NCBI GenBank assembly: GCA_030065125.1
Contig: JASJDM010000033.1
Location: 1-64,000 of the forward strand
Length of the DNA: 64,000 nucleotides
Source: Lysobacterales bacterium
Lineage (GTDB): Bacteria; Pseudomonadota; Gammaproteobacteria; Xanthomonadales; SZUA-38
Direction: 5' to 3'
Shown one piece after another: positions 26,978-44,056 of this stretch. The stretch's first letter is position 1, and each line of letters opens with the position of its first letter. The position numbers were made by a program, and so were the translations under genes. Under the pieces are notes generated by a model, which did no database searches, was not told the DNA's origin, and was given only the letters and a program-made list of their open reading frames with translations.

Positions 26978-28327
26978 GTGTCCAGATTGTTGTTCTTGTT
27001 CGGCCCCGCCGTTCTGGCCGCCCTTCTCAACGGTGCAGCCGGGGCCCAAACGGTAACCACCCTGGTCAATTCCCTGAACGGCAGTGGCGACCTCAGCGTC
27101 GGGCCCGACGGCAATATCTACGTAGCCGACTTCGGTCAGTTCCTCAACAGCGCCAACGGCACCACGGTTTCCCGGGTGACCCCGGATGGGCAGGTCAGCG
27201 TGTTTGCCACCGGCCTGAGCGGGGCATCCGGTAACGAGTTTGATGCCCAGGGCAACCTGATTCAGGCCAATATCGCCGCCAACCGCGTGGACCGCATTGC
27301 ACCGGACGGCACCGTGACCACCATCGCGCAGACCGGCTTTACCAGTCCCGTGGGCATCGCCATCGCCGCCGACGGGACTGTTTATGTTGCCAACTGCGGC
27401 GGCAACTCCATCTCGCGAATCGATAACGGCGCAGGCGTGGTGTTTGCCTCCGGGGGAGCACTGAGCTGTCCCAACGGACTGACCATGGACCCCGAAGGCA
27501 ACCTGTACGCGGCCAACTTCAACAACGGCAACGTCATCAGGATCACGCCCGACGGCAGCCAGAGCGTGCTGGCTACCACTCCGAACAGCTCCTTCCGGCC
27601 CAGCGGTGGCAACGGACATATCACTTTCGGCAACGGCCGCCTGTACCTGGTCAGCAACGCCAGCGCCCAGGTGTTTGAGCTGACCCTGGATGGCGTTCTC
27701 ACCGTGGTGGCCGGAGACGGCAGCCGCGGCCACAACGACGGACCCGGCGACCAGGCCAGCTTTTCCTCCCCCAACGGCATTTCCCTCAGTGCCGACGGCC
27801 GGTTTCTGTATGTCAATGAAGCCTCGTCCACCGCCGGAACCACATTGAATTTCGCCACCTTTCCGCTCAACCCGAGCCTGGTACGCGTGGTCGATCTTGG
27901 CCCGCAATCCCAACCGGTCCAGATCAACAACGGCATGACCGGGGCCTGGTTCAACCCGGCAACGCCGGGCCAGGGCATGTACCTTGACGTCAGCAAGGAG
28001 GCCAACCTGCTGTTCGGGGCCTGGTTCACCTACGAAACCAATCTTGGTTTTTCACTGCCGCCGGGCGCAAATGAACACCGCTGGCTGACGTTCCAGGGCC
28101 CATTCTCCGGCGAGGCCGCCACGGTGGAAGTGTTTCTTACCGAGGGCGGGATATTTGACGACGCCGCGCTGACCACCACCACGGCCGTGGGGCAGGTCAC
28201 CATCAGCTTCAGTACCTGCACCGATGCCAGCTTCGCCTATGCCCTGGATGCGGGTCCCAGCGGCAGCATGGAGCTGATTCGGCTGACGCCGGACCTGTTC
28301 TGCGGCGCCACGGGAGAAAAGCGATGA
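26978..28327 (+). CDS. Secreted NHL-propeller protein with C-terminal AWF module
   Basis: The product has 449 residues and starts with GTG at 26978, CAGGAG seven bases upstream. The signal peptide ends near NGAAGAQ. Residues ~25-310 are a six-bladed NHL/SMP30-like propeller (LSVGPDGNIYVADFG, NGLTMDPEGNLYAANF, PNGISLSADGRFLYVNE). Residues ~315-443 are the AWF module: GAWFNPATPGQG, FGAWFTY, HRWLTFQG, TEGGIFDD, ISFSTCTD and a final Cys at ~443. It is closely similar to the protein at 39994. The stop overlaps the next start as ATGA, so it is co-translated with the M28 peptidase gene. The role is probably binding or lactone hydrolysis outside the cytoplasm; no catalytic residues are certain. Confidence 0.85.
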   Translation: MSRLLFLFGPAVLAALLNGAAGAQTVTTLVNSLNGSGDLSVGPDGNIYVADFGQFLNSANGTTVSRVTPDGQVSVFATGLSGASGNEFDAQGNLIQANIAANRVDRIAPDGTVTTIAQTGFTSPVGIAIAADGTVYVANCGGNSISRIDNGAGVVFASGGALSCPNGLTMDPEGNLYAANFNNGNVIRITPDGSQSVLATTPNSSFRPSGGNGHITFGNGRLYLVSNASAQVFELTLDGVLTVVAGDGSRGHNDGPGDQASFSSPNGISLSADGRFLYVNEASSTAGTTLNFATFPLNPSLVRVVDLGPQSQPVQINNGMTGAWFNPATPGQGMYLDVSKEANLLFGAWFTYETNLGFSLPPGANEHRWLTFQGPFSGEAATVEVFLTEGGIFDDAALTTTTAVGQVTISFSTCTDASFAYALDAGPSGSMELIRLTPDLFCGATGEKR

Positions 28328-30807
28328 CTGGCTTACGCCTGATTCAGGCACTCGGTCTGATCGCTGTGACGCTGTTGCCGGCTGCCTGGGCCGAGGTCAC
28401 CACCGTCGCCCAGGTGCGGGCCAGCGGGGATATCGCCGTCGCCGCCAACGGCACCATCTACCTGAGCGATTTTGGTCCACCCAACCAGGCCAACGGCAAC
28501 TCCATCGACCGCATCAGTCCCGACGGCAGCGTGGTCACCTTCGTCACCGGTCTGGGTCGGGCCCTGGAAGGCAATGCCGTGGATTCCCAGGGCAACCTGA
28601 TCCAGGTCGGCTTCAATTCCAATGCCGTGTACCGCATCGACCCTGCCGGCAACGTCACCACCATCGCATCCCTGGCGGCACCGGTGGGTGTGGCGGTGGA
28701 TGCAGCCGACACCATTTACCTGACCCAGTGCCGCGCCGATGCGGTGCTGCGCCTGGAAGCGGACGGTTCACTGACCACCCTCGCCGCCGGCAACGGCCTC
28801 AGATGCCCCAACGGGCTGGACGTGGGTCATGACGGCGCTCTTTACGTGGTGAACAACGTCAATGGCGGCATGCTGCGGGTGGGTCTGGATGGCCAGGTCA
28901 CATCCTTTGCCACCATCCCCGGGGGCGGCAACGGGCACGTGGTGTTCGTCGACGGCTTTTATTATGTCGCGGGTCGCCTGGCGCACCGGATTTATCAGGT
29001 GGACACCAGCGGCAACGTGACCCCCTATGCCGGGACCGGCGTCGATGGCGAATCCGATGGTCCCAATCTGCAGGCCACCATTTCCCGACCCAATGGCATT
29101 GGGCATTCGCCGGACGGTCGGTTCCTATACGTCATCGGCAGTTCTGATTTTTCGGCCGCCACCCTGCCGGTTCGCCGCATCGACCTGCCCGCAGCCGAAG
29201 AATTCCCCATTAACGGGGGTCTGAGCGGCGCCTGGTTTGACCCCGACACGGCCGGCCAGGGGTTCATGTTTGACGTGATCATGGATTCCAGCCAGATCGC
29301 ATTGGCCTGGTTCACCTTCGGAACCCAGCCCGCCTCCGGTAATGCGCTGGTCGGGTCCGACGGCCACGAATGGCTGACGGCCCAGGGCAGCTACGCCGGC
29401 GGCACGGCCCAGATGGACATCACGCTGACCACCGGCGGCGTATTTGACGACCCCCAGGCGGTGACCAATACCCCCGACGGCACCCTCACCCTGACTTTCC
29501 ACAGCTGTACCGAGGCCACGCTGGATTACACCCTCAACGATGGCAGGAGCGGTCGCAACGAGCTGATTCGTGCCACCCCGCCGACCCTGTGTGAGACATT
29601 GGCACCGCCGTCGGCCAAGGCGTTCAACCTGCCGCCCCGCCTGTCCGTTCTGTCCACCATCGCCGGTGACGACACCGTGCGCGTGCAATTCACCGCGGAA
29701 GACCCGGAGAATGACGTGCTGGAAATCCGGGTTAACGCGGTTAGCGAATCCGGCGCCTCCCACCAGGTGCCCCCGGACTATCTGGACGGCGACGCCGGCT
29801 ACCCGGTACGGCCCGGGACCGCGCGGGATCTGGCCTGGCGGTATCGTCAGGACCCGGGGTTCGCTGATCTGGGGGGCGAGCGTTTCCGCCTGGAGCTGAC
29901 CGCGGACGACCGCTACGTGGCCGGCATCGGCGACATCGTCAACCTGGTAGACGAAACCCGCCTGGTGGAAGACGTGGCGTTCATGCAACAGGACCGTCGC
30001 CACTTCAGCGCCGGCCCAGGCCACCTGCAGTCCACCCGCAACCACCTGCGGCAGCAGATGGTCGAGCGGGGACTGGCGGTGACCCAGCAGTCGTTCAACT
30101 GGCAGGGCGATACCGGCATCAACGTGATCGGGATCCTGCCTGGCCGCAACGGCAGCCAGGCCTACTACATTTTGGACGGCCATTACGACACCGTGAGCAC
30201 CACCCGGGGCGCCGACGATAACGCCTCAGGCACAGCCGGCATGCTGGAGGCGATGCGCGTGCTGTCTCAATTCAATGCCCGGGATTCCATTCGCTTCATC
30301 GGTTTCGACAAGGAGGAGTTGGGCCTGCGAGGCAGCCGTCACTATGCGTCAAGCCTGCCACCCGGGGAGTCGGTGCTGGGCATGCTCAATTTTGAAATGA
30401 TTGGCTACACCTGCCGGGGCCAGCCGGAGTGTGCCGGCCTGAGCCTTGCAGACACGGCCATCTACAACGTCTACCCCAGGTTCAACAACACCCTGGCCGG
30501 CCTGTTCGCCGAAGTGGGTCGCGCTCACGTGCCGGGACTGAAAATTGTCACCGTTGAAGACGACGGTGATTCCAACCTGCGTCGCAGCGATCATGCGCCG
30601 TTCTGGGATATCGGCGTCGACGCCCTGTTCCTGACCGACGGCGCCAACTTCCGGACACCCCACTACCACCGACCCACGGACCTGCTGGACGTGATGGACA
30701 CCCAGTTCATGACCCAGGTGGTGAAGGTGGCGGTGGGGACCCTGGCCCGGGCAGCCGGCGTCACCCATACCGACACTGTGGCGACGGACCTGGTCAGCGT
30801 TCCATAA
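28324..30807 (+). CDS. Secreted NHL propeller - AWF module - M28 zinc peptidase
   Basis: The product has 827 residues with signal peptide MTGLRLIQALGLIAVTLLPAAWA. Residues ~25-290 are an NHL propeller, ~294-420 the AWF module (GAWFDPDTAGQGFMFDVI, LAWFTFG, HEWLTAQGSY, LTFHSCTE), ~430-530 an Ig-like linker, and ~540-820 an M28-family peptidase. The zinc site looks complete: H in LDGHYDTV (~620), D in GADDNASG (~632), E-E in DKEELGL (~664), the acidic residue in NFEMIGY, and H in PHYHRPTD (~783). M28 enzymes are aminopeptidases or carboxypeptidases. The AWF module sits between two domains here, which shows that it is a movable unit. The gene is co-translated with the upstream NHL gene. Confidence 0.9.
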   Translation: MTGLRLIQALGLIAVTLLPAAWAEVTTVAQVRASGDIAVAANGTIYLSDFGPPNQANGNSIDRISPDGSVVTFVTGLGRALEGNAVDSQGNLIQVGFNSNAVYRIDPAGNVTTIASLAAPVGVAVDAADTIYLTQCRADAVLRLEADGSLTTLAAGNGLRCPNGLDVGHDGALYVVNNVNGGMLRVGLDGQVTSFATIPGGGNGHVVFVDGFYYVAGRLAHRIYQVDTSGNVTPYAGTGVDGESDGPNLQATISRPNGIGHSPDGRFLYVIGSSDFSAATLPVRRIDLPAAEEFPINGGLSGAWFDPDTAGQGFMFDVIMDSSQIALAWFTFGTQPASGNALVGSDGHEWLTAQGSYAGGTAQMDITLTTGGVFDDPQAVTNTPDGTLTLTFHSCTEATLDYTLNDGRSGRNELIRATPPTLCETLAPPSAKAFNLPPRLSVLSTIAGDDTVRVQFTAEDPENDVLEIRVNAVSESGASHQVPPDYLDGDAGYPVRPGTARDLAWRYRQDPGFADLGGERFRLELTADDRYVAGIGDIVNLVDETRLVEDVAFMQQDRRHFSAGPGHLQSTRNHLRQQMVERGLAVTQQSFNWQGDTGINVIGILPGRNGSQAYYILDGHYDTVSTTRGADDNASGTAGMLEAMRVLSQFNARDSIRFIGFDKEELGLRGSRHYASSLPPGESVLGMLNFEMIGYTCRGQPECAGLSLADTAIYNVYPRFNNTLAGLFAEVGRAHVPGLKIVTVEDDGDSNLRRSDHAPFWDIGVDALFLTDGANFRTPHYHRPTDLLDVMDTQFMTQVVKVAVGTLARAAGVTHTDTVATDLVSVP

Positions 30808-30879
30808 GGAAGAGCCGCCGCAGCCCGGCATGAAGAAACCTATCCAAGAAAATTTCGAGGACAGTGCCAGGGAGGCGCA

Positions 30880-31599
30880 TCAAAAACGAGTCTCCACCTG
30901 AATCAAGATCTCATCATCGGCCAGTTCACCGAACAGGGCTTCGGCGTCATTTTCAGTATCGTGGTACAAAATGCTGAAATCGATGTTTTTCCAGGATTTT
31001 CCTAAGCCGATGGCACCGTATCGGTAGCTTGTCTGGTATAGATCTCCGAGATCAACGTAACCAATGGTGCTCAGAATCGAAAATCCTCGTGGCAGGGGAT
31101 AATCCGCGCCCAGTTCGTAGCTGATACCGACCTCGTCGGAGTCCAGTACGTCATGGGAGTACGCCACGGTGCCGGTCAGCCAGTCGCGATATGCCCCAGA
31201 CAGCTGCAGTTCCGGATAGTCGGCCCCAGATGCCCCGGCGGGATAGTCGTAATACACCACGCTGGCAGACCATGACCAGTCGGCATGCCATCTGTTGCGG
31301 TAGCCAATGGTGTACTGTAACTCCAGTTCGCCATTGTCCACGACGCCGGGCACGACGCTGTCGATGCTGCTGCCCTGCAAGCCGCCATACAAGCCGTTGC
31401 CGAACAGGTAGCTGATGCCGCCGCTCATGGCGGTGTCGCCTCCGGTGCGGGACACGCCCCTGAACAGGTAGTCACTGGAAAATGACAGATTGCCCTCGAT
31501 GGCATCGGTCTGCGATATCGCATCGGTTTGCGAAAGGACGGATCCGGTCCAACCGGCACCGCAAAGAATGAGGAGAGAAAACGCCGGGAAATCGTTCAT
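30880..31599 (-). CDS. TorF-family putative porin
   Basis: The product has 239 residues. After a signal peptide (FPAFSLLILCGAGWTGSVLSQ) the sequence SFSSDYLFRGVSRTGGDTA is the signature of the TorF (Gcw_chp) outer-membrane family. Alternating short beta-strands follow (YTIGYRNRWHADWSWSAS, AYSHDVLDSDEVGISYELG) up to a C-terminal ILIQVETRF, with the terminal Phe typical of outer-membrane barrels. TorF proteins are proposed channels of unknown substrate. A tandem SQTDAI duplication lies just after the signal peptide. The gene is convergent with the M28 gene and transcribed alone. Confidence 0.88.
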   Translation of the reverse strand: MNDFPAFSLLILCGAGWTGSVLSQTDAISQTDAIEGNLSFSSDYLFRGVSRTGGDTAMSGGISYLFGNGLYGGLQGSSIDSVVPGVVDNGELELQYTIGYRNRWHADWSWSASVVYYDYPAGASGADYPELQLSGAYRDWLTGTVAYSHDVLDSDEVGISYELGADYPLPRGFSILSTIGYVDLGDLYQTSYRYGAIGLGKSWKNIDFSILYHDTENDAEALFGELADDEILIQVETRF

Positions 31600-31896
31600 T
31601 GAGCCTGAACCTCACTGTGTGATGTGAGCGTTCACGATAGTCGGCCACTGTGTAAATTCGGGTCGCCCCAAGGTAGAAAAAGGAATGATCGGGCAAATTT
31701 CTGTAAACGCGGGTTTTGCGGTTGCGCCCCGGGCCGGGGCGGGCTAAATCTACCGCAGAAATGGGCAACCGGGACCGGAGGATTGGGTTTGCCTGGAGAT
31801 TCGGGGTCAAGCCTCAAATTCATGCCCACAGTTCCAATACCCAGTATCAATGCCTGTCCCGTGTTTGCCCGGTGGGTACCACCGACCCATGTGCGG
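31600..31896. other. Intergenic region, 297 nt
   Basis: No gene is seen. It lies between the porin start and the stop of the acyltransferase gene, both read leftwards. It contains ATCAATGCCTGTCCCGTG near 31847, a partial match to the ATGCCTGTCC repeat family. Confidence 0.5.
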
Positions 31897-33135
31897 CTAG
31901 AGCAGGATCTCCAGACCGATCGGAATGACGATGAGGGACGCCGCTCCAATGGTGGCATACCTCAGCATTGGCGACTTTGAAGCGCTCGCTTCATCCGGCC
32001 ATAGCTTGAGTCCGAACAGCGGTCGCAGTGGCATCACCCGTCGTGCAAGCTCGTAAGTCAGCGCACAGCCGGCGAAGGTCCCGGCGGCCACCAGTAGCGG
32101 CTCCAGCACAGGACCCAGCGTCAATCCGGAGAGCGCGAATGCCAGCACGATGACGAAGGTCTGGTGGACCAGGTAGAAAGGGTAGACACCAGCAGTCAGG
32201 TAGGGCAGCCACGGGTGCGGCCGATTGAGATAAGTGAACCCATAGCCGAACAGCGCCGCCAGCCAGAGCCATCGATTGCTGTGGGTCAGGATTGTAAGGG
32301 TGATGCCCTGCGCGTCTGACAGGTCACCACCGGAGGGCAGCCAGATCAGGTGATAACCGGCCAGGAAAAGGGTATATGTGACCAGGGCGCCGCCTAAGGC
32401 CCAGCGTCGCCATCGCGCCAGCGCGTCCCATACGCTCTGCTGGAAGGTCATGAGATAACCGATCAGGAAGTAGGCCAGCCCCACGGCTTCCCGGTGTCCG
32501 TCCCCGCCCACACGCGGGAAAAACGCCAGGTCCAGTACAGCCAGGATCAGGGGCAGGCCAAAAAGGACTGAAACAGAACCTGCCGGCATCCACAGCCGCT
32601 TGACCCATCGCTGGTCGCGTATGCGGTTCAGCAGGGGCATGGCCAGCAGCAACAACAGCGTGAAGGTCCAGAGCTCCCGCAGGTACCACAGGTGGTTGAC
32701 GTCGACATGGGGCCAGATACCGGCCGTGTAGCCATCGAAAACCGGGTTGTCCAGATCGAAGAATTGACCATAGAACGTCCCGTAACTGCCGGCAAAATCG
32801 CCGTTCGCGCTCATCTCGACCCAGAGTTGTGGCGGTACAATGACCCAAATGCCAAAAGCCAGGGGCAGCAGCAGGCGCACCGTGCGAGATTTGAGCGTCT
32901 CCAGCCAGCCGCATTTGCCAAAGACATAGGCCGTAGCGATACCGGAGACCATCCACAGCAGAGGCATGCGCCAGGGATTCACCAACAGCATCAGGTTCTG
33001 GAGGAAGGCGCTGGTGTAGGCACTCTTGAAATGAAACCCCCAATCCTCCACGTACAACATGCCGATGTGGTAGAGAATCAGCAGTGCAAAGGCGAAGATC
33101 CTTAGCCAATCGAGGTCGTAGCGTCGTTGGGTCAT
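31897..33135 (-). CDS. Acyltransferase-3 / OpgC-like integral membrane protein
   Basis: The product has 412 residues from the ATG at 33133-33135 (MTQRRYDLDWLRIFAFALLILYHIGML); a frame from 33186 adds 17 unlikely residues. About ten membrane helices are present. The N-terminal R-x-Y-D-L-D-W-L-R and LYHIG with its conserved His are typical of acyltransferase family 3, which transfer acyl or succinyl groups to glycans and lipids in the inner membrane. HLWYLRELWTFTLLLLL fits the second conserved block. It is divergent from a LytTR regulator with a 117-bp gap, the same arrangement as the methyltransferase/LytTR pair at 12307-14425. The acceptor is unknown. Confidence 0.85.
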   Translation of the reverse strand: MTQRRYDLDWLRIFAFALLILYHIGMLYVEDWGFHFKSAYTSAFLQNLMLLVNPWRMPLLWMVSGIATAYVFGKCGWLETLKSRTVRLLLPLAFGIWVIVPPQLWVEMSANGDFAGSYGTFYGQFFDLDNPVFDGYTAGIWPHVDVNHLWYLRELWTFTLLLLLAMPLLNRIRDQRWVKRLWMPAGSVSVLFGLPLILAVLDLAFFPRVGGDGHREAVGLAYFLIGYLMTFQQSVWDALARWRRWALGGALVTYTLFLAGYHLIWLPSGGDLSDAQGITLTILTHSNRWLWLAALFGYGFTYLNRPHPWLPYLTAGVYPFYLVHQTFVIVLAFALSGLTLGPVLEPLLVAAGTFAGCALTYELARRVMPLRPLFGLKLWPDEASASKSPMLRYATIGAASLIVIPIGLEILL

Positions 33136-33252
33136 GGCAGGCCCTGGTCGATTTGAGTGTGCTACCAGTCTCTGCCCTTGAAGCAATCAATTCATCACCC
33201 ATGGGTTGGAGTGCCCACATTCTGTGACAAGCGGTGGGCCCATGAGGACAAA

Positions 33253-34143
33253 ATGAAAGCGCCCAGCGAACAGCCAGCCTGGTTGTCCCGGCTCTCCGAT
33301 GTCTACCGTAGACGCCAGGCCCTGGTGGAATGGGCCTACTGGCCGGTTGTGCAAATCTCTACTGCGCTGCTTGACGCAGACAGCGTGGTCAAGGAGTACG
33401 CGCGCCGTGGCACTCCCATCCCGTCCTGGGAACCCTACTGCTGGGAGCTGAGCAGCGCTGCCTCCATGCTGTTGTGTGTCGGGCTGATCATTCTGTTTAA
33501 CCGGCGTTTTTCACTCGACTCGGTGCGCATCGGTTGGCACCTGCTTGCCCACCTGGGCTTCACGGTCGTCATTTCACTGATCCACGTGGTCGGCATGGTG
33601 CTGCTGCGCGAACTTGTGTACCGCCTGATGGGCGGCAACTACGACTTCGGCGATTGGGGTGGAGAGCTGTGGTACGAATACCGCAAGGATTTCGTCACTT
33701 ATCTGGGCGTGCTCGTGACGATTTACGTTTACCGGGTTGTGGCCAGTCGCCTGATCAGCGAAGCCAGCCCGATCACCGACACGGGTGACGCCGTCGGCGA
33801 TAACGGAACCCGCACCGAACGCTTCCTGGTGCGCAAGCTGGGGAAGGATTTCCTGCTGAGATCCGATCAGATCGAGTGGATCGAGGCTGCGGGCAACTAC
33901 ATGAACCTGCATGCTCGCGGGCGCGTCTTTCCAATTCGTGAAACCATGGCGGCACTGGAGCAGAACCTCAATCCTCAGAACTTTGCGCGGGTCCACCGCT
34001 CCTATATCGTCAATCTGGACCACGTCGTATCAATGCGGCCCGAGGACAGTGGCGATGGCGTGATCCAGCTCGCGGACGGATCGGAGGTCAAGCTGTCGCG
34101 GCGTTACCGCGAAAACTTTTTGTCGCGGGCACAACGGCGATAA
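33253..34143 (+). CDS. Membrane-anchored LytTR transcriptional regulator (copy 2)
   Basis: The product has 296 residues; the ATG at 33253 is preceded by GAGGA at a good distance, so a frame from 33157 is rejected. Residues ~50-175 contain about four membrane helices. Residues ~195-295 are a LytTR domain (IEWIEAAGNYMNLHARGRV, FPIRETMAALEQNL, FARVHRSYIVNLDHVVSM, VKLSRRYRENFL). There is no receiver domain. It is divergent from the acyltransferase-3 gene, its most likely target. It is followed by a hairpin (34168-34200) and then the second CadC-like regulator. Confidence 0.92.
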   Translation: MKAPSEQPAWLSRLSDVYRRRQALVEWAYWPVVQISTALLDADSVVKEYARRGTPIPSWEPYCWELSSAASMLLCVGLIILFNRRFSLDSVRIGWHLLAHLGFTVVISLIHVVGMVLLRELVYRLMGGNYDFGDWGGELWYEYRKDFVTYLGVLVTIYVYRVVASRLISEASPITDTGDAVGDNGTRTERFLVRKLGKDFLLRSDQIEWIEAAGNYMNLHARGRVFPIRETMAALEQNLNPQNFARVHRSYIVNLDHVVSMRPEDSGDGVIQLADGSEVKLSRRYRENFLSRAQRR

Positions 34144-34167
34144 CCGGGCCCTCGCCGGCCGCCATGG

Positions 34168-34200
34168 GACTGAACCACGGGCGCAAGCTCGGGTTCAGTC
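34168..34200 (+). terminator. Hairpin after the LytTR gene, possible terminator or operator
   Basis: Inverted repeat GACTGAACC (34168-34176) and GGTTCAGTC (34192-34200) with a 15-nt loop, 25 bp after the LytTR stop. There is no T-run, so intrinsic termination is doubtful. It could equally be a binding site upstream of the next gene. Confidence 0.35.
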
Positions 34201-34243
34201 ATCCCGTACCGCCGCCTCCGGTGTCCTATTGCCGCGCATTCGC

Positions 34244-34279
34244 TATAATCGCAACACTTCCACGACAAGTATCGTACTT
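34244..34279 (+). promoter_or_regulatory. Perfect -10 hexamer and short palindrome before the second CadC-like gene
   Basis: TATAAT at 34244-34249 is followed by the inverted repeat AAGTA-TCG-TACTT at 34267-34279, 13 bp before the start codon at 34292. No good -35 is visible, so an activator may be needed. A short operator between -10 and start would fit autoregulation. Confidence 0.35.
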
Positions 34280-34291
34280 CTGGGGGTTTCC

Positions 34292-36370
34292 ATGGTGTTT
34301 CAACCCTCTCAGAATGCGCTGGGTCACAAGGCATTCCAAATTGGCCACACCAGTGTATGGCTGGACCGCCGGTTGATCCGGCGCGATGGCAAAGATCACA
34401 GCCTGCAGCCCAAGGCAATCGAAGTTCTAGAGCTGCTGGCTTCCCGGGCAGGGGAAGCCGTATCGCGCGAGGAGCTGTTGAGTGGGGTGTGGGGACCGGA
34501 CGGTTCCGACGATCTTTTGAGCAACGCGGTGTGGAAACTGCGCAAGGCCCTGGGTGATTGCGGTTCGGAGCCGCCGGGCATCATTGAGACCATTCCCAAG
34601 TTCGGCTATCGCCTGACCCGGATACCCCAACCCATGTCCCGGCCGGCGACCCGGGTGAGCCGGAGGCTCTGGATACCCGCGGCGCTTTTTTCCTGTGCGG
34701 CGGTGGCCGGCATTTTCGGTTGGCCAGGGGTAGAGCAATCCCGGCCGTTGGTGGAACAATCCGTCCACGTGCTGCCGCTGGTTCGCATAGCCGGGGTGAA
34801 GTCTGGCCCCAGCTATTCGCCCGATGGCCAGTCCGTGGCTTATGTCGCCCCGGACAACAGCTACCACACCGATTTGTTCATTTACGACCGCGGCACGGGT
34901 GAATCCCGGCGGATCAGCAGCGACTCGGGTTGGAATTTCCATCCTGCGTTCAACCGGCTTGGACAGGTGGCGGTTTTCAGGCACCTGGACGGCGGCTGTG
35001 CCATTGACGTATTCGACAGCCGGTCTGGAGACCGCCTGTCAAGCTTTGACTGTGACGGCATCAACGGTCGCTCACTGAACTGGTCCAGAGACGCGCAGTA
35101 CCTCCTGGTTGCCAGCCACCACCACGGCCGCTCGACTCCCGTTGCTATCGACACCCGCACGGGCAAACGCGTCGCGCTCGCCGACGGCGGCGACCACCAA
35201 CGCAGCCTGTCGGCCCCAGCCGAATCCCCCGACGGAATCCGGATCGCTGCCATCGAATCCCTGCACGAAGGCGGTGAGCGTGTGTTTATCGACGAATCCC
35301 GGACCAGCCCGGTGTATTCCCGCATCGGCGCGATGGCCTGGCTTGGCAACGATATGATTGTATTTTCGGTGGATGGCGGAGACGGCACCTACCATCTTCT
35401 GCGCTGGCCCGCCGACGCATCCGCAGATCCCGCATTGCTGGCCAGGATTCCGGGTACCAACACCCAGATCAGTGTTGACGCCGTCTCCAATGACCTGGCA
35501 TTCGACGCGACCCGGTCCGTTTCTGATCTTTGGATGATCGATGAGCCTGCATCGGGTGGCGCCATGCGAATCGCCAGTACCGCCATGGATGAATACCATC
35601 CCGTCATTCGCCCCGACGGCCAGCGTATCGCCTGGCTGGCCGACCAGCCCCGGCCGGGATCGGTGTGGGTCCGGGATCTGCCCACGGGTCCCGGCAGGCA
35701 TTTGGATTTTGTCGGCCTGACCGTGCACAGCGCTACCTGGATCGGGCAGGAGCAACTGGTGGTCGCCGCCCTGCGAGAAGGCAACCATGACCTGTACCGG
35801 ATCGACCTTGGGGCCCGGTCCTTTGAACCGCTGGTGGCCACGGACGCCCATGAGATGGCCCCCAGCGCCGCCGGCCGGTGGGTGTTCTATTCCTCGCGCA
35901 GCGGCACCCAATGGACGCCCTATCGGCTGGACCTGGACACCAATGAAATCACCACCCTTTCTGCCCCGGGCCTGCGGATCATGCGGCCGGCACCGGATGG
36001 ATCCCGCATCTACTACACCCGAAACGACGCCGACGGATTGTGGACTTATGACCTGGAAACCGGCCTGGATTCACTCGTCACCGACGAACTGGGCGGCGGC
36101 GACTGGGGCAACTGGGCCGCGGACAGCAAGGGCGTTGTGTTTATCAGCCGGTTTCGCGGAGGAAATCGCCTGGTGCGGATCAATCACGGGGACCTTGAGC
36201 TCGACCGCGGCGCGCCATACACGGGGTATTTCCTTCCGGGTGCCAACCTTTCCATGAGTCACCAGCACCAGGTGGCCGTGACCATTCGCAACAATTTTGA
36301 AGGCGACATTCTGATGCTGCAGTCTCCTCGGCCGCAGTTCTCCAGTGTCCTGAAGATCGCCTCTAACTGA
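34292..36370 (+). CDS. CadC/ToxR-like membrane regulator: winged helix, TM helix, TolB-like propeller (copy 2)
   Basis: The product has 692 residues from the ATG at 34292 (GGGGG about five bases upstream); a frame from 34229 runs across the -10 region. Residues ~5-105 are a winged helix (LIRRDGKDHSLQPKAIEVL, SREELLSGVWG, NAVWKLRKALGDCG, IETIPKFGYRL). One membrane helix (LWIPAALFSCAAVAGIFGW) lies near 135. The rest is a TolB/WD40-like propeller (SGPSYSPDGQSVAYVAPD, HPVIRPDGQRIAWLADQ). The protein matches the one at 24717 in domain order and length. It lies 112 bp upstream of the second AWF-module gene set, and I infer that it regulates that set. Confidence 0.9.
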   Translation: MVFQPSQNALGHKAFQIGHTSVWLDRRLIRRDGKDHSLQPKAIEVLELLASRAGEAVSREELLSGVWGPDGSDDLLSNAVWKLRKALGDCGSEPPGIIETIPKFGYRLTRIPQPMSRPATRVSRRLWIPAALFSCAAVAGIFGWPGVEQSRPLVEQSVHVLPLVRIAGVKSGPSYSPDGQSVAYVAPDNSYHTDLFIYDRGTGESRRISSDSGWNFHPAFNRLGQVAVFRHLDGGCAIDVFDSRSGDRLSSFDCDGINGRSLNWSRDAQYLLVASHHHGRSTPVAIDTRTGKRVALADGGDHQRSLSAPAESPDGIRIAAIESLHEGGERVFIDESRTSPVYSRIGAMAWLGNDMIVFSVDGGDGTYHLLRWPADASADPALLARIPGTNTQISVDAVSNDLAFDATRSVSDLWMIDEPASGGAMRIASTAMDEYHPVIRPDGQRIAWLADQPRPGSVWVRDLPTGPGRHLDFVGLTVHSATWIGQEQLVVAALREGNHDLYRIDLGARSFEPLVATDAHEMAPSAAGRWVFYSSRSGTQWTPYRLDLDTNEITTLSAPGLRIMRPAPDGSRIYYTRNDADGLWTYDLETGLDSLVTDELGGGDWGNWAADSKGVVFISRFRGGNRLVRINHGDLELDRGAPYTGYFLPGANLSMSHQHQVAVTIRNNFEGDILMLQSPRPQFSSVLKIASN

Positions 36371-36482
36371 TTGAAGTAAAAAAAGAAGAGAAAAAATAGA
36401 GAAATCGGTGATGGGGTGTCCATTGTTCGCCCCCGATCCGGCGGGCACTGTTTCCGACGTCTCTGGCTGACTCTGGAACACC

Positions 36483-38771
36483 ATGTCCCTTACTCGCTTG
36501 TGCCTGACCCTGGCGCTGCTGGCTGTCCTCTTCCCCCAGGCAGCAGGCGCCCACCTCAGCGCGCAACACGATCGCTCGATTCAACCTGGCCTTTACTACG
36601 ACCCGGAGCACGACGGCCACGGCTTCGATCTACAACCCGTGGGTCTGAGCTGGGTGATGGTCTTTTACTCCTACGACTCAGACGGCAATCCCGAATGGCT
36701 GCTGGGTGTACTGGATGAAAACGAGCCTGGAATCCTGAGCGGGTCCCTGGATGTCTTTTCCTACCAGGCCGACCGACTTCCACCCCAGCAATCCGTTCGG
36801 ACTGCTGGATCGGTCAGCCTGGATTTTGCCGGCGCCTGCCCCACGTCCCGTTCCAAGGGCGAACCCATCGGCGCCCGTTTCAACTGGTCTCTGGACGGAG
36901 CAAGTGGCCAGTGGTGCGTCCAGCCTCTGCTGAATCAGTCGGACCTGGACAGGGACTTCACCGGCCTGTGGTACGGCGGCGAGGCCGACGCCGGCTGGGG
37001 CATCAGCCTGGACTTTGCCGGCCCAACCACCGACCCAGACACCGACCCGGACGCCGACCGCGTGGAGGTCCAGGTCCTGTTCTACTACGACGAGGCCGGC
37101 ACCGCGCGCTGGGCCCTGGGAAGTGGCACCGGCGGCGCGACGGCGGACCTCGCCGTGCATAACTATCGGGGCTATTGCCGGAGCTGCGAACCCAGACCCC
37201 TGGAACCGTTTCCGGCGGGGTCCATCAGTCATCACCTCGAGGTGGTTGATGGATTGCCCGGCGGCCAGATCACTATTGACGTGATCTACGCCCCGAGTGC
37301 CGGGAGCTGGCGCCGGCAGGACACCTCACTGTCATTGCTGTCAGAGCCGGCGCCCGGCTTGATTCCCATGCCGGACCAGGTTGAGCCGGATCGAATCATC
37401 GCCATTCTCAACACCAGCGTGGTGCCGATGACCGGACCGGATGAGGTCATACCTCATCAGATGCTGCTGATCAGCGACGGCCGAATCGTTGAGGTCGGCA
37501 ACTACGGGGCCATAGCGGTGCCCGAGGGGGCCGTGCGAATCGACGGCAGGGATCTTTATGTAGGTCCTGGTCTCCACGACATGCACACCCACTTCAGCTT
37601 CGGCGGCATCACCCCTATGCGGGAAGCCGGCACCCTGTTCATCGCCAATGGTGTGACCACAGTTCTGAACATGGGCGACGGAGGCACTCAGAACCTGCCA
37701 GGGACCGATTCGCTGTTCAGCGCCGGCACCTTCATCGGTCCGGCGGTTTACGCGGGTGCCGCCGCCTACGGACCCGGCGACGGTCGGGCGGCCAGCGCAA
37801 CGGTTTCCTCGCCGGCAGAGGCCACCCGATATGCCGAGAACGCCCAGCGCGCGGGTTACCAGTTCATCAAACTGTACAACTCCCTGAGTCCGGCCGTGGT
37901 GCAGCGCTTTATCGCGGAAGGCCGGCGGCTGGGCATGCCCGTCAATGGCCACTTGCCGAAAACCATGACCATGAGAACGGCATTGGAGTCCGGCCAGGGA
38001 ATGGTCGCCCACGTGGCGGAGGTCTATTTCACCCTGTTTTCCAATAGTCCCAACGACGATCTGCTGCCCCAGGCCGCGGCCCTGATGCTGGAAAACGGGA
38101 CCTACCTGACCGACACCCTCACGGCGTCTGAGTCCTTCGCCGCAAACTACGGGGGAAACGAAGAGGCCTTCATGGCGTTTTCCCGCCGCGAGGGCATCCT
38201 CTATCAGCCCACCAGCTTTGCCGAAAACGGCTGGCGGAATTTCTTCGAAAGCAGTGTGCTGCAGCCGGCGGGTTCCCAACCCGGGCAACTCGACGGCCGG
38301 CTTGCCTATTTCAAGAAGATGGTGCGCTACTTCAGCGACGCCGGCGTACCGCTGATTCTGGGCACTGACTCGCCGGGCCACATCGGCGTGATCTCCGGTT
38401 TCAGCGTGCATGAAAACCTGCGGCTTTACGACGAAATCGGATTGTCTGCGTTTGACGCTTACGCGGCAGCCTCCCGGAACCCCGGGGCCTATCTCTCCCA
38501 GTCCCTGGAGGTAGATACCGGTTGGGGAACGGTTGAAGTGAACAAGCGTGCAGACCTGCTGCTGTTGGAAGCCAACCCTCTGGAATCCGTGCAGCACCTC
38601 AAGCGCCCCCTGGGTGTTATGACCCGGGGGCGCTTCTATTCAAGGAGTCGATTGCAGCAGGCCTTGGGAGCGCTGGACGCCAAGTACCGGGACCCGTTTA
38701 CCCTCGGAAAGTCTCTGGATCCGCAGTCTGTTCCGGCCCACCCGTGGCCCTGGTGCCGGCATGAACATTAG
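36483..38771 (+). CDS. Secreted amidohydrolase with two N-terminal AWF-like modules
   Basis: The product has 762 residues; signal peptide MSLTRLCLTLALLAVLFPQAAGA. Residues ~30-280 are two diverged modules related to the AWF module (GLYYDPEHDGHGFDL with NPEWLLG; GLWYGGEADAGWGISLDF with ARWALG), each with late Cys. Residues ~300-740 are an amidohydrolase of the metal-dependent type: PGLHDMHTHF (HxH, ~367-369), FIKLYNS (Lys that is usually carbamylated), VNGHLPK, VAHVAEV and LGTDSPGH (Asp, ~627). All ligands are present, unlike the family member at 14448. The reaction is probably hydrolysis of a cyclic amide or dipeptide-like substrate in the periplasm. It is first in a tightly spaced rightward set of five genes. 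Confidence 0.88.
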   Translation: MSLTRLCLTLALLAVLFPQAAGAHLSAQHDRSIQPGLYYDPEHDGHGFDLQPVGLSWVMVFYSYDSDGNPEWLLGVLDENEPGILSGSLDVFSYQADRLPPQQSVRTAGSVSLDFAGACPTSRSKGEPIGARFNWSLDGASGQWCVQPLLNQSDLDRDFTGLWYGGEADAGWGISLDFAGPTTDPDTDPDADRVEVQVLFYYDEAGTARWALGSGTGGATADLAVHNYRGYCRSCEPRPLEPFPAGSISHHLEVVDGLPGGQITIDVIYAPSAGSWRRQDTSLSLLSEPAPGLIPMPDQVEPDRIIAILNTSVVPMTGPDEVIPHQMLLISDGRIVEVGNYGAIAVPEGAVRIDGRDLYVGPGLHDMHTHFSFGGITPMREAGTLFIANGVTTVLNMGDGGTQNLPGTDSLFSAGTFIGPAVYAGAAAYGPGDGRAASATVSSPAEATRYAENAQRAGYQFIKLYNSLSPAVVQRFIAEGRRLGMPVNGHLPKTMTMRTALESGQGMVAHVAEVYFTLFSNSPNDDLLPQAAALMLENGTYLTDTLTASESFAANYGGNEEAFMAFSRREGILYQPTSFAENGWRNFFESSVLQPAGSQPGQLDGRLAYFKKMVRYFSDAGVPLILGTDSPGHIGVISGFSVHENLRLYDEIGLSAFDAYAAASRNPGAYLSQSLEVDTGWGTVEVNKRADLLLLEANPLESVQHLKRPLGVMTRGRFYSRSRLQQALGALDAKYRDPFTLGKSLDPQSVPAHPWPWCRHEH

Positions 38772-38786
38772 GGGAGTGACGACGCC

Positions 38787-39992
38787 ATGACAAAACTCAC
38801 AGCCACCCTGGGCGGCGGCCTGATGTGGATCGCCACCCTCGCGTCCGCACAGCAGGTGATCAATGAGGGAATGGACGGTGCGTGGTTCAACCCCGCCACG
38901 CCGGGCCAGGGCATACTGGTGGATGTGGACGAGGATTTTTTCTTCCTGGCCTGGTTTACCTACGATCCCATGGCCGTGGCCACCGACGGCGAAGATGCCC
39001 ATCGCTGGTACACCGCCCAAGGCAGAATCGACCGCAGTATCGACGACAGCGGTGCTGAGCTTGCGCTGTTCGAGACCCGTGGCGGTTTTTTCAATGCGGC
39101 CTCGGAGACCGTCACCGAAGAAACCGGCACCGCCAGTATCAGCTTCTCCACCTGTACCAACGCCGATTTCAGCTACGCGTTCAGCGGCGGCCGTTCCGGG
39201 TCTTTCGCGCTGGAGCGCCTGGCCCCGGACGTGCTGTGCGAACCACTTTCACCGCCCGACAAAACCGTCACCGTCACCTACCTGGGCAATGCAGGGGTCT
39301 TCATTGACGACGGCGATGAAGGAATCCTCATCGATGCCTTCGCCAACTTCAGCGGCTGGATCGATTCCCCCGCCAGTCTGAAAACCGCCCTGCGCAATGC
39401 CGATCCTCCCTATGATCGCGCCCTGGTCATGGCCGCAACCCACAATCATGGCGACCACCTGGTCTCCAGTCAGGCCAATGGGTTTCTGGGCAACCAGCCC
39501 GAGGCCCTGGCCCTGGTCCCCAACTCGGCGCGAGGGAGCTTTGCCGCGGCCCGGCGCGTCGAGCTCTCACCCGCCCGGTTCGACGCCGTCAGCGTTCCGG
39601 CTGGCGAGTTCATGCTGACCGTGATCAACACCCGCCACTTCAACCAGTTCGGCAACGATTTTTCCGACCTCGAAAATTACGCCTACCTGGTGGAGATCAG
39701 CGGCCAGCGGATTCTCCACACTGGAGACATCGACTACGCCTCGGACAATTTCCAGGCCATCATAGATGCCATCGGCGCGCCGCCGGACGCCCTCATCCTG
39801 CCCACTTTCAACACCCTGATCAGCGCCCGGAACCGGGACCTGGTCACCCAGTTCTTTCCCGGGTCCCAGGTCGTCGCTACCCATTTCCGCTCCGGCTCCC
39901 TGGCCGCTGAGCGCAACCAGTTGCTGGCCCAGTTTCCCGACGCGGTGGTGTTTGACCAGGCCCAGAAAACCTTCACGCTGCCGGAGAACTGA
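38787..39992 (+). CDS. Secreted AWF module fused to metallo-beta-lactamase-fold hydrolase
   Basis: The product has 401 residues; signal peptide MTKLTATLGGGLMWIATLASA. The AWF module here is N-terminal, residues ~21-152 (GAWFNPATPGQGILVDV, LAWFTYD, HRWYTAQG, ISFSTCTN, final Cys ~151). Residues ~158-400 are an UlaG-like MBL fold: TYLGNAGVFIDDG, the zinc motif THNHGDH (~217-222), NTRHFNQFG, HTGDIDYA and ATHFRSG. The zinc site looks complete. It begins 15 bp after the amidohydrolase stop and ends one base before the next start, so an operon is likely. The substrate is unknown; related folds hydrolyse lactones, phosphoesters or amides. Confidence 0.88.
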   Translation: MTKLTATLGGGLMWIATLASAQQVINEGMDGAWFNPATPGQGILVDVDEDFFFLAWFTYDPMAVATDGEDAHRWYTAQGRIDRSIDDSGAELALFETRGGFFNAASETVTEETGTASISFSTCTNADFSYAFSGGRSGSFALERLAPDVLCEPLSPPDKTVTVTYLGNAGVFIDDGDEGILIDAFANFSGWIDSPASLKTALRNADPPYDRALVMAATHNHGDHLVSSQANGFLGNQPEALALVPNSARGSFAAARRVELSPARFDAVSVPAGEFMLTVINTRHFNQFGNDFSDLENYAYLVEISGQRILHTGDIDYASDNFQAIIDAIGAPPDALILPTFNTLISARNRDLVTQFFPGSQVVATHFRSGSLAAERNQLLAQFPDAVVFDQAQKTFTLPEN

Positions 39993-39993
39993 G

Positions 39994-41352
39994 ATGCGAC
40001 AGATCCTTCGGACCACAGCGCTCCTGCTGGCGGCCACCGCTGCTTTTTCCGGCGGCGCGCAGGTTCGCGTGGAAACCCTGGCCACCGGCTTTGATGCCAG
40101 CGGCGACGTGTCGGTGGGCCCCCAGGGCAACATCTACGTGGGCAACTACGGCTCCACACTCAACGACTCCACCGGCTCGACCGTGACCCGCATCACCCTG
40201 GACGGCCAGATCAGCATATTCGCCACCGGATTCAGCGGCGCGTCGGGCAACGTGTTTGACGCCCAGGGCAACCTGTACCAGTCCAGCATCCGCACCGCCC
40301 AGGTGATCCGCGTTGCGCCGGATGGCGGTACAGAGGTCTATGCCTCCGGCATTTCCGGCGGCGTGATCGGGCTGGCCTTTGACTCCCAGGGCAATCTGTA
40401 TGCCAACTCCTGCGGGGAAAACCGGATTTACCGCATAACGCCGGACCGCCAGGTGTCAGTGTTTGCATCGGGACCGCCGCTGTCCTGCCCCAACGGCCTG
40501 ACCTCGGACCCGGACGACAACCTGTATGCCGTCAACTTCGACAACGGCGTCATTTCCAGGATCGACACCCAGGGCAACGTGTCCCTGCTGGCCCGAACCC
40601 CGGGAGGCAGCTTCCGCAGTGGCGGCGGGCACGGGCATGTGACCTTCGGCAACGGGGTGATCTATACCGTCTCCAACGCGTCGGGGCAGGTCTACGAGGT
40701 TAGCCTCGACGGCACCACCCGGCTCCTCGCCGGATCCGGAGCCCGGGGCCACGCTGATGGAGACCCGGCCACGGCCAGTTTCCAGATGCCCAACGGCATC
40801 GACCTCAGCGCCGACGGCCGGCGGCTGTACATCAACGAGTCCGAATCCCTTTCGGGCACCGGGCTCACCGGCACCTACCCCCTGACCCCTAACCGCTTGC
40901 GCGTCGTCGTGTTGTCCGAAGGACAGGCCATCAACCCGGGAATGAGCGGCGGCTGGTTCGATAGTGACAATCCGGGCCAGGGCTTCCTGTTCGACGTGGT
41001 ACCGTCCACCCAGACGTTTTTCGCCGCCTGGTTTACCTTCCGCGGTGACCCTCCAGGAAAGGACATGGGAAAGGGCATGGGCAACGATCACCGCTGGTAC
41101 ACGCTGCAGGGAAGTTACGCGGAATCCGCGGCTGACCTGCAAATATTCTCCACTACCGGCGGGTTGTTTGACGAGGCTTCCGAGACAGCCACCGTAACCG
41201 TGGGATCGGCCACCCTCACCTTCGATTCCTGCGAACAGGCCCGATTGAGCTACCAGCTGGATTCACCGGCTCGCAGCGGCACCATAGCGCTGTCGCCCCT
41301 GGTGTCGCCCACGCTTTGCCTGGATCAGGCGGGCATCCCGGTCAGCCGGTAA
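39994..41352 (+). CDS. Secreted NHL-propeller protein with C-terminal AWF module (paralogue of 26978)
   Basis: The product has 452 residues from the ATG at 39994, one base after the preceding stop; a frame opening at 39952 inside the upstream gene is rejected. The signal peptide ends near SGGAQ. The NHL propeller (residues ~22-305) matches that at 26978 blade by blade (VSVGPQGNIYVGNYG, ISIFATGFSGASGN, SCPNGLTSDPDDNLYAVNF, GHGHVTFGNGVIYTVSNAS). The AWF module is at ~312-445 (GGWFDSDNPGQGFLFDVV, AAWFTF, HRWYTLQGSY, LTFDSCEQ). A short Met/Lys/Gly insertion (GKDMGKGMGN) lies before the HRW strand. The two genes appear to be products of an operon-scale duplication. Confidence 0.87.
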   Translation: MRQILRTTALLLAATAAFSGGAQVRVETLATGFDASGDVSVGPQGNIYVGNYGSTLNDSTGSTVTRITLDGQISIFATGFSGASGNVFDAQGNLYQSSIRTAQVIRVAPDGGTEVYASGISGGVIGLAFDSQGNLYANSCGENRIYRITPDRQVSVFASGPPLSCPNGLTSDPDDNLYAVNFDNGVISRIDTQGNVSLLARTPGGSFRSGGGHGHVTFGNGVIYTVSNASGQVYEVSLDGTTRLLAGSGARGHADGDPATASFQMPNGIDLSADGRRLYINESESLSGTGLTGTYPLTPNRLRVVVLSEGQAINPGMSGGWFDSDNPGQGFLFDVVPSTQTFFAAWFTFRGDPPGKDMGKGMGNDHRWYTLQGSYAESAADLQIFSTTGGLFDEASETATVTVGSATLTFDSCEQARLSYQLDSPARSGTIALSPLVSPTLCLDQAGIPVSR

Positions 41353-41378
41353 TCACAATGGATACGAGGTTCATTTCA

Positions 41379-42680
41379 ATGATTGGATTCCCTTCCACCG
41401 GCAAGGCCGGCGTCGTGGCCACTGGGGTATTTGCCCTCATTCTGTGGTTCATGGCCTTCCACGCCGCGGCCCAGGATTTTGAGCTGTATGTCGTTGACGT
41501 CGGGCCGGACCGGGGACCACCCTGGCAGGTCCTCAAGTACGACATGAACGGGAATAACCCCGAGGTGTTCGTGGGCTCCGGGTTGAATCGGCCTCAGGAC
41601 ATCCTGTTCCTGGAAGACCAGGGCGTGGCGCTGGTTTCCAGCCTGGGCAGTAATCGGATTACCCGGCATGATGCGTCCACGGGTGCGTTCATCGATAACT
41701 TCGCCACCGGAATCGGTCAGCCCACCCGGATCAAGATCGGCGCCGACAAACTGCTGTATGTGCTCCAGTGGGCCGGCAACGGGCGCGTCTGGCGTTATGA
41801 CCTGGACGGGAATTTCGTCGACGAGTTCACCACAGTCGGTGTCAGCAACAGCATTGGCATGGACTGGGATAGCGAGGGCAACCTCTACGTGGCTTCGTTC
41901 GACGCCCGGCACGTGCGCAAATTCGATACCAATGGCGTCAATCAGGGCCTGTTTGTGACTACCAACCTGGTGGGCCCCACCAACATCTGGTTCGAAGACT
42001 CCGGTGACCTGCTGGTCATGGACTGGAGCGGCCGTGCCATCAAGCGGTACAACGCCAATGGTGTGTTCCTGTCCACCTTTGTGACGGGGTTGAGCGAACC
42101 CGAGGGCATCGAGTTCCTGGATAACGGCAATTTCCTGATCGGCAACGGCGGCACGTCGTCGGTTCGGGAATACGACGCCAGCGGCCGGTTTGTGCAGGAT
42201 CGGGTTGCCGTCGGTGCGGGTGGCCTGGCCAAACCCAACGCCGTACGCATCCGCCCCCTGGGCGTTCCCTTTGCCATCAACGCCGGCCTGACCGGGGCCT
42301 GGTTCAATCCTGCCACCGCCGGCCAGGGCCTGCTGGTGGAAGTGATTCCCTCCCGCCAGGAAGTTTTCCTGGCCTGGTTTACCTACGCGGAACCTGACGC
42401 CGGTGGCAAAGTAGGGGTTCCTGAACACCGGTGGCTCACCGCCCAGGGCAGCTACGCCGACGCAACAGCCGAACTGACCCTGTCTTCCACCCGTGACGGC
42501 GTGTTTGACCGGGGCGACGCCGTCAGCACCGTGCCGGTGGGATCGGCGACGCTGTCGTTCAGCGACTGCGAGGCCGCCCGTTTCAATTACGCGTTGGACG
42601 ACGGCCCAAGTGGCGGCTTCGACTTGAGCCGTATTGCGCCGGACGTTTTGTGCAGCTCACTGACGGAGGCCATCCGATGA
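41379..42680 (+). CDS. Secreted NHL/SMP30-like propeller protein with C-terminal AWF module
   Basis: The product has 433 residues from the ATG at 41379, chosen for the GAGG nine bases upstream; an in-frame ATG at 41358 is the alternative. A signal peptide or signal anchor (GVVATGVFALILWFMAFHAAA) precedes a propeller of blades such as NRPQDILFLEDQGVALVSS and SNSIGMDWDSEGNLYVASF (~35-310). The AWF module is at ~313-430 (GAWFNPATAGQGLLVEVI, LAWFTYA, HRWLTAQGSYADATAEL, LSFSDCEA, final Cys). The stop overlaps the next start as ATGA. This propeller is only distantly related to the two other NHL proteins. The ligand is unknown. Confidence 0.86.
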   Translation: MIGFPSTGKAGVVATGVFALILWFMAFHAAAQDFELYVVDVGPDRGPPWQVLKYDMNGNNPEVFVGSGLNRPQDILFLEDQGVALVSSLGSNRITRHDASTGAFIDNFATGIGQPTRIKIGADKLLYVLQWAGNGRVWRYDLDGNFVDEFTTVGVSNSIGMDWDSEGNLYVASFDARHVRKFDTNGVNQGLFVTTNLVGPTNIWFEDSGDLLVMDWSGRAIKRYNANGVFLSTFVTGLSEPEGIEFLDNGNFLIGNGGTSSVREYDASGRFVQDRVAVGAGGLAKPNAVRIRPLGVPFAINAGLTGAWFNPATAGQGLLVEVIPSRQEVFLAWFTYAEPDAGGKVGVPEHRWLTAQGSYADATAELTLSSTRDGVFDRGDAVSTVPVGSATLSFSDCEAARFNYALDDGPSGGFDLSRIAPDVLCSSLTEAIR

Positions 42681-44056
42681 TCCGATGTGTTCTGGCGGTT
42701 TGCCTGCTGACCTCCTCACTGGCGACACCGGTGTGGAGTGACGATGATTGGACCACGTCTTCCGCTGCCATGCCCACGGCCCGCAAAGAGATCAACAACG
42801 CCACCGTGGCTATGGGCGATGACATCTACGTGGTGGGCGGCATCGCCTCCAACGGCCAGATTACCGGCGCGCTGGAAATCTACGACACGGCGACGGACTC
42901 CTGGCGGGCCGCCGCCGATCTTCCCGCGCCGGTGTGGCGATCCAGCGCAACCGCCATTGACGGTCTGCTTTACGTGTTCGGAGGTTACCGCGGCACGGCC
43001 GGCTTTCCGTTCAGCCCGACCGCGGCAAGCTGGCGATACGATCCGTCCAGCGACCAGTGGACGGCCATCGCGGATATGCCCGTCGCCCGAGGATCCCTGG
43101 TAGCCCTGGCCCTGAACGGACGGGCCCACGTGCTGGGCGGCGCCACCGACACAGCCCAGGCCCTGCACCAGGTCTACGATCCTGCAACCGATACCTGGAC
43201 CGAGGCGACACCGATGCCGGCCCCGCGATCCGGGCTGACCGGCAGCGTCATCAATGGCGAGATCCATCTGACTGGGGGCTATATCCTCAACAACGGCGTG
43301 ATTCCCCAGACCGATCTGTTCATATACTCCAGCGCCAGCGACCAGTGGCGAACCGCGGCGCCCCTGCCCACCGGACGCGTCGGCATCGATGCGGTGACCT
43401 TCCGCGCCACCCTGCTGGTATTCGGCGGCGCGGCCACCGCAGCGGTTCCCTCCCGAACGCTGCAATACGATCCCGCCCTGGACACCTGGACCGAGCGCGC
43501 CGACATGCCCCAGCCCGTTTCGTTCATGGGCGCGGCCCGGGTCGGCAACCGGGTTCACGTGGTGGGCGGTGGCGCCACCAATCTGGACCGCTTCGACGGG
43601 CTGGCACTCAATCGGCAGTACACCCCCAAGGGCGGCGATTTTGTCATCAACGGCGGCCACGGCGGCGCCTGGTTCAACCCGGCCACATCAGGACAGGGCA
43701 TCGTCCTCGAAGTGCTGCCGGCCCTCAACCAGTTGTTCGCCGCCTGGTTCACCTTTGATGCAGCCGATGATGCAGACGACGGGGGGAAAGTGGGCGCCAA
43801 TGGCCAGCGATGGCTGACCGCCCAGGGAGGGATTAACGGTAACCGGGCCCAACTGGTGCTGTCTGAAACATCCGGCGGCGCCTTCGACAACGCCCAGGCA
43901 ACGTCCACCCAATCCGTCGGCACCCTGACCATCGAATTCTTCGACTGCGCCTCCGGCCGGGTGGACTATTCCCTGGATGACGGCGCCACTATCGGCGGAT
44001 TCGAGATACAGCGGCTCGCCCCAGCCGAGCTGTGCGAGCAGCTATGGGGGCCGTGA
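42677..44056 (+). CDS. Secreted Kelch-propeller protein with C-terminal AWF module
   Basis: The product has 459 residues from the ATG at 42677, which overlaps the upstream stop (ATGA) and has GGAGG nine bases upstream. The signal peptide ends near TPVWS. Residues ~25-315 contain about six Kelch repeats (IYVVGGIASNGQITGALEIY, LYVFGGYRG, HVLGGATDTAQ, HLTGGYI). The AWF module is at ~325-452 (GAWFNPATSGQGIVLEVL, AAWFTFD, QRWLTAQGGINGNRAQL, IEFFDCAS, final Cys in ELCEQ). It is the last gene of the second AWF set. Kelch propellers bind proteins or sugars; the galactose-oxidase active-site residues are not seen, so a binding role is more likely. Confidence 0.87.
   Translation: MIRCVLAVCLLTSSLATPVWSDDDWTTSSAAMPTARKEINNATVAMGDDIYVVGGIASNGQITGALEIYDTATDSWRAAADLPAPVWRSSATAIDGLLYVFGGYRGTAGFPFSPTAASWRYDPSSDQWTAIADMPVARGSLVALALNGRAHVLGGATDTAQALHQVYDPATDTWTEATPMPAPRSGLTGSVINGEIHLTGGYILNNGVIPQTDLFIYSSASDQWRTAAPLPTGRVGIDAVTFRATLLVFGGAATAAVPSRTLQYDPALDTWTERADMPQPVSFMGAARVGNRVHVVGGGATNLDRFDGLALNRQYTPKGGDFVINGGHGGAWFNPATSGQGIVLEVLPALNQLFAAWFTFDAADDADDGGKVGANGQRWLTAQGGINGNRAQLVLSETSGGAFDNAQATSTQSVGTLTIEFFDCASGRVDYSLDDGATIGGFEIQRLAPAELCEQLWGP

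Follow-up and report, generated by a model that had tools for sequence, protein, structure and literature searches.

Six genes in the window (the whole 64-kb stretch of DNA that was analyzed) each encode one copy of an AWF module, and a further gene encodes two diverged copies in tandem. See Table 1 for the coordinates of the genes and of each copy. The six AWF copies are ~127–133 codons long, run from an I-N-x-G at the start to a final Cys, and have 46–52% identity to the reference copy; 28 columns are invariant when the six are aligned. Among six-frame ORFs of the window, they were recovered at E values of 1e-43 to 1e-48 by a profile that had included the six copies themselves. Additionally, a single consensus sequence retrieved all six from the whole genome at E values of 1e-39 to 1e-58.

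Table 1. Genes encoding the module and individual module copies, in window positions
Feature	Position	Strand	Support
Secreted NHL/SGL propeller protein, AWF module C-terminal	26978..28327	+	ORF, signal-peptide-like start, NHL/SGL Pfam matches
AWF copy 1, C-terminal	27923..28303	+	
Secreted NHL propeller - AWF module - M28 peptidase	28324..30807	+	
AWF copy 2, internal	29209..29601	+	
Secreted amidohydrolase, two diverged modules N-terminal	36483..38771	+	
Diverged module, GLYYDPEHDGHGF type, first of tandem	36561..36941	+	Profile E 4.8e-9, hhalign 99.7%
Diverged module, GLWYGGEADAGWG type, second of tandem, weakest copy	36948..37250	+	Profile E 0.12; 3e-11 (circular)
Secreted protein: signal peptide, directly AWF module, then metallo-beta-lactamase-fold (MBL) domain	38787..39992	+	Lactamase_B_3; full-length orthologue in G051
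AWF copy 3, N-terminal	38859..39248	+	
Secreted NHL/SGL propeller, AWF module C-terminal	39994..41352	+	
AWF copy 4, C-terminal, without the conserved Arg	40930..41319	+	
Secreted NHL-like propeller, AWF module C-terminal	41379..42680	+	
AWF copy 5, C-terminal; structure predicted from this copy	42276..42659	+	AlphaFold2 pLDDT 91.5
Secreted Kelch propeller, AWF module C-terminal	42677..44056	+	Kelch Pfam matches; full-length homologue in G055
AWF copy 6, C-terminal	43646..44044	+	

The motif shared by the six copies had been read from the DNA in a preliminary description, and it holds with small corrections. Copy 4 (40930) reads GGWFDSDNPGQG, and near its end a Pro replaces the otherwise conserved Arg; the HRW motif is HEW in copy 2 (29209) and QRW in copy 6 (43646). 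The placements given there were also correct, namely C-terminal to NHL propellers (26978, 39994, and 41379) and a Kelch propeller (42677), in the middle of the NHL-M28 protein (28324), and N-terminal to the MBL-fold domain (38787). The two diverged copies it placed before the amidohydrolase proved to be real homologues. A profile that excluded both copies found the amidohydrolase protein among the window ORFs at an E value of 3e-8, and a second profile, likewise lacking the first copy, found that copy genome-wide at 4.8e-9, with a profile-profile comparison (hhalign) at 99.7%. The second copy had a single-domain E value of 0.12 in the first profile; its value of 3e-11 is circular, as the iterated profile had taken that copy in.

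Several other genes lie near the cluster. A secreted Laminin_G_3 (concanavalin-like) protein is encoded immediately downstream of the AWF genes (44307–45143), and a 421-residue secreted protein without a Pfam match lies at 46496–47761 on the minus strand. A short LQGVWFNPALDS stretch of the latter resembles the start of the module (E value 0.78), but the remainder is unlike it, and we excluded this protein from the copy count. By reading of the translations, the AWF genes are flanked by two regulator-like proteins (24543–26876 and 34229–36370), each combining a winged-helix-like N-terminal region with a transmembrane segment and a TolB-like propeller; these are possibly local regulators. Also by reading, a 1,451-residue signal-peptide protein at 19534–23889 on the minus strand contains repeated cadherin-like VLANDSDPDG repeats.

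Copies, partners, and distribution of the module

The preliminary description counted at least six copies. Six AWF copies are indeed present, but as an estimate for the genome this was far too low. The consensus-sequence search located 60 places in the same genome, a broader profile raised this to 76, and iterative scanning of fetched genome regions brought the total to at least 77 copies in 55 ORFs. A signal-peptide-like start, as called by a simple heuristic or by eye, is present in nearly all 55 carriers. The module is C-terminal in 35 of these ORFs, N-terminal (directly after the signal) in 14, and internal in 3, while the last 3 are stand-alone ORFs of a signal plus the module and little else. 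More than one module is present in 22 of the 55. Because N-terminal, internal, and stand-alone copies occur, a strict C-terminal sorting signal was ruled out.

Pfam searches of the carriers identified a wide range of partner domains. The peptidase partners are subtilases (S8), M14, M28, and a trypsin-like domain. Other enzymes are endonuclease I, alpha-amylase, a PHB-type esterase, alpha/beta hydrolases, beta-lactamase-fold enzymes, MBL, amidohydrolase, glucose/sorbosone dehydrogenase (GSDH), and cyclophilin, and the remaining partners are NHL, Kelch, and other propellers, TSP3, Spondin_N, DUF3179, DUF4397, and DUF2807. NHL, cyclophilin, endonuclease I, GDSL lipase, Kelch, and GSDH partners recur in other MAGs, so the expected recurrence beside varied hydrolases was seen in this genome and beyond it. 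Homologues of the Kelch protein and of the MBL protein carry the module in G055 and G051, respectively, and others lack it, with matches limited, for example, to query residues 7–299 or 153–389. Therefore, the module is a removable part of these proteins.

One of the most frequent partners is a secreted cyclophilin (a peptidyl-prolyl isomerase), with nine MAG carriers plus locus L136, in which a single ORF (3439–7374) encodes a cyclophilin, two modules, and a subtilase. An orthologue of the MBL protein in another genome (G002:C19:13679–14496) is divided between two reading frames, either as a broken gene or through a sequencing error.

The family is found across the order and is rare outside it. 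It is present in 48 of 61 relatives of the same order, many with 10–60 copies. Across the class, sampled evenly, 4 of ~364 genomes that do not belong to the order have it. In this class sample, the same six genomes, two of them inside the order, match the profiles of two different subfamilies. A phylum sample added a few weak matches, all in one further family. Most named loci of the close AWF type come from Lysobacterales/Xanthomonadales MAGs and Marinicella, and a Wenzhouxiangellaceae MAG (L102) carries the module as well. No relative of the module was found in the viral contigs searched, and the plasmids searched had no module. Two carriers, L086 and L087 (4854–5813), from MAGs labelled Xanthomonadales and Haliea, have an identical module sequence, which may reflect transfer or mis-binning; locus L091, labelled Chloroflexi, may likewise be mis-binned. 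In a maximum-likelihood tree, the six window copies did not group together, and two of them paired with copies on other contigs (support 97/89 and 86/83). A single clade of the six was not rejected by the AU test (p = 0.13), and these six may have arisen by local tandem duplication or by shuffling between genes.

Family assignment and predicted fold

The preliminary description could name no database family for the module, and our searches led to the same result. No credible match over the curated cut-off was obtained for the module itself from Pfam-A or NCBIfam, with sets of 27 and 13 representative modules searched, and a sequence search of the PDB gave no match that names the module. Matches to MORN RSPH1, a surface protein, and a retinol-binding protein in these searches were at chance level. 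The Pfam avidin family (PF01382) was not matched by any of the 27 members, and an avidin profile found nothing in the genome, a search in which the control was also without a match. Sequence homology to bacterial lipocalins was rejected, with an hhalign probability of ≤1% against a 20-locus bacterial lipocalin set (Lipocalin_2, PF08212). We therefore speak of a calycin-like fold and not of the lipocalin family. The abundant, unnamed family itself is real.

AlphaFold2 modeled copy 5 from a 94-sequence alignment with a pLDDT of 91.5 and a pTM of 0.85. The confident model supports a single compact, mostly beta fold for the AWF type, as had been anticipated. It has a helical turn (residues 7–9), eight strands (11–14, 22–28, 33–41, 55–65, 68–77, 88–99, 104–111, and 116–123, termed A to H), and a C-terminal helix. 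A prediction for the amidohydrolase tandem pair failed (pLDDT 37) because the alignment was too shallow. The best Foldseek matches in the PDB were designed eight-stranded barrels, nitrophorin 4, alpha-1-acid glycoprotein, other lipocalins, avidin, and hoefavidin, and no CBM fold was among the top 50. Scores were modest, with E values from 0.027 to 0.3, probabilities up to 1.00, and TM scores of 0.4–0.65. A fold search of BFVD returned weak barrels only.

Calycins are defined structurally, by a barrel, a 3-10 helix cap, and a latch formed by a first-strand Trp and a last-strand Arg or Lys (PMC2954199). In the model, the helical turn precedes strand A, where calycins have their cap. The Trp of the first strand (W13, in a GxW motif) is present in 94 of 94 aligned copies and in ~91% of 163 wider copies. 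R123 of the last strand is present in 85 of the 94, and an Arg or Lys occurs there in 134 of 159 wider copies (about 85%), with Lys as the substitute in some. The Arg is missing from copy 4 of the window and from most of the diverged GW(x)G-type copies, which retain the Trp; co-occurrence of the two residues across copies was not significant (p = 0.24). Like lipocalins, avidins, and fatty-acid-binding proteins, the module thus has a predicted set of eight strands, a helical turn, a GxW, and a last-strand Arg or Lys, and its predicted C-terminal helix is lipocalin-like. Unlike known calycins, it is ~120 residues long, is shuffled and often in tandem on enzymes and propellers, and has lost the Arg in a diverged subfamily. 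On this model, the fold is likely calycin-like and looks closer to lipocalins and avidins than to a CBM beta-sandwich.

Two further features were mapped onto the model. In 143 of 151 copies, the two Cys are either both there or both missing (Fisher p = 2.6e-15, not corrected for relatedness). Since the two co-occur, the disulfide proposed earlier is plausible, and it would join the F-G hairpin to the C-terminal helix. Strands F to H have one hydrophobic face and one polar, variable face, as in a soluble barrel, and strand E partly follows this pattern. Strands C and D, unlike E to H, are conserved on both faces.

Possible roles of the module

Our leading but tentative interpretation, to which we give a probability of roughly 0.42, is that the module is a disulfide-stabilized, eight-stranded, calycin-like barrel that serves as a generic attachment handle. 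Carriers would cross the inner membrane by means of the signal-like sequence seen at their starts and would probably exit by a type II secretion system, for which the genome has a GspD match over the cut-off. Once outside, the barrel may hold its carrier on a common ligand, either on the cell's own surface or matrix or on the surface of prey or a particle. Contact would most likely be made through the C-D hairpin together with the A-B loop (N-P-x-T-x-G-Q-G); we place the putative surface at C and D because both of their faces are conserved. Domain shuffling would then have supplied functionally unrelated enzymes and propellers with one handle.

The substrates of the partner enzymes are chemically unrelated (protein, DNA, starch, and esters), which makes a substrate-specific CBM less likely than a generic tether. 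The preliminary description had suggested either CBM-like substrate binding or cell attachment; the first is not supported as worded, and the second appears to fit the sequence data better. A CBM-type module for polysaccharide or peptidoglycan is, in our view, quite improbable. It would account for the modular placement beside hydrolases, and all three CBM_56 (PF22184) matches that the genome gives at E values up to 1 fall inside module copies (contigs C29:32734, C32:15210, and C33:44362 of G000; L193–L195). However, these matches are partial and below the curated cut-off (best 18.5 bits versus 27), the Foldseek result speaks against a CBM fold, and most partners are not glycan-active. CBM56 is a beta-sandwich that binds beta-1,3-glucan; its likeness to the module is a weak local similarity at the strand B-C motif and the fact that both are modules on secreted enzymes. 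A cell-wall glycan as the target would merge this explanation with the attachment handle. An accessory for folding, stability, or export, which aids its passenger through the periplasm and type II secretion or protects it outside in the manner of a pro-region or a PPC-type C-terminal domain, agrees with the signal-peptide-like starts, the 35 of 55 C-terminal placements, GspD, and the disulfide-like Cys pair. We hold it to be unlikely, given the N-terminal, internal, and stand-alone copies, the Kelch and MBL homologues that do without the module, and the strong conservation on both C-D faces, which suggests a binding surface.

The barrel could also be a true ligand-binding calycin, with a small molecule (a lipid, haem, pigment, sugar, or peptide end) in its cavity that it senses, hands over, or captures on behalf of the attached domain. 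The predicted fold and signature, the two conserved faces of C and D with the invariant Trp, and the secreted stand-alone copies are consistent with this, but the partners have no common substrate or cofactor, the core is rich in aromatic residues, and tandem duplication with free N- or C-terminal placement is more typical of tethers. We regard this role as doubtful; if correct, it would be a rare example of such a barrel spread through domain shuffling. It is similarly unlikely that the fold is another small beta-barrel or roll that resembles a calycin in Foldseek, with the GxW and Arg positions coincidental. The Foldseek E values are not significant, TM scores are 0.4–0.65, and the Lipocalin_2 profile-profile comparison was negative, yet the top high-probability matches are mostly eight-stranded barrels, and the helical turn, first-strand Trp, and last-strand Arg are all at calycin positions in the model.

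Two published systems bear on the attachment handle. Tp0751 of Treponema pallidum is a non-canonical lipocalin barrel that acts as an adhesin (PMC5040251). The two are likened by fold features, not sequence: Tp0751 is, as is predicted for the module, a bacterial barrel with a GxW and a last-strand Arg, and it is used for attachment outside the cell (PMC5040251), but it has no enzyme fusion, whereas the module is fused. The related Wenzhouxiangella AB-CW3 expresses peptidases with signal peptides yet excretes no proteolytic activity, and the assumption made in that study is that the peptidases are anchored in the outer membrane (PMC7691419). By analogy, such anchoring would agree with a tether.

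A bolder proposal, unlikely as it stands, is an order-wide surface-retention system in which one calycin-like barrel docks dozens of secreted enzymes and propellers to the outer surface or matrix of the producer through a single cognate partner, as a counterpart of type IX CTD sorting or sortase anchoring. Type IX secretion CTDs, PEP-CTERM, and GlyGly-CTERM are each a single C-terminal tag common to secreted proteins with varied N-terminal domains, and the module is also common to many varied secreted proteins. It differs in being N-terminal, internal, tandem, or stand-alone as well, and in being, by prediction, a folded barrel and not a short tripartite tag; none of the NCBIfam models of these tags matched it. 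Both the fold type and the idea of an attachment module are already known, and their combination and the scale are new to us.

At 77 copies, the module ranks among the extracellular domains that recur most often in this genome, and a named profile would annotate many stretches now called "hypothetical." Should it prove to be a tether, a single binding experiment would show where the group's degradative enzymes work and account for a proteolytic relative whose activity stays cell-bound.
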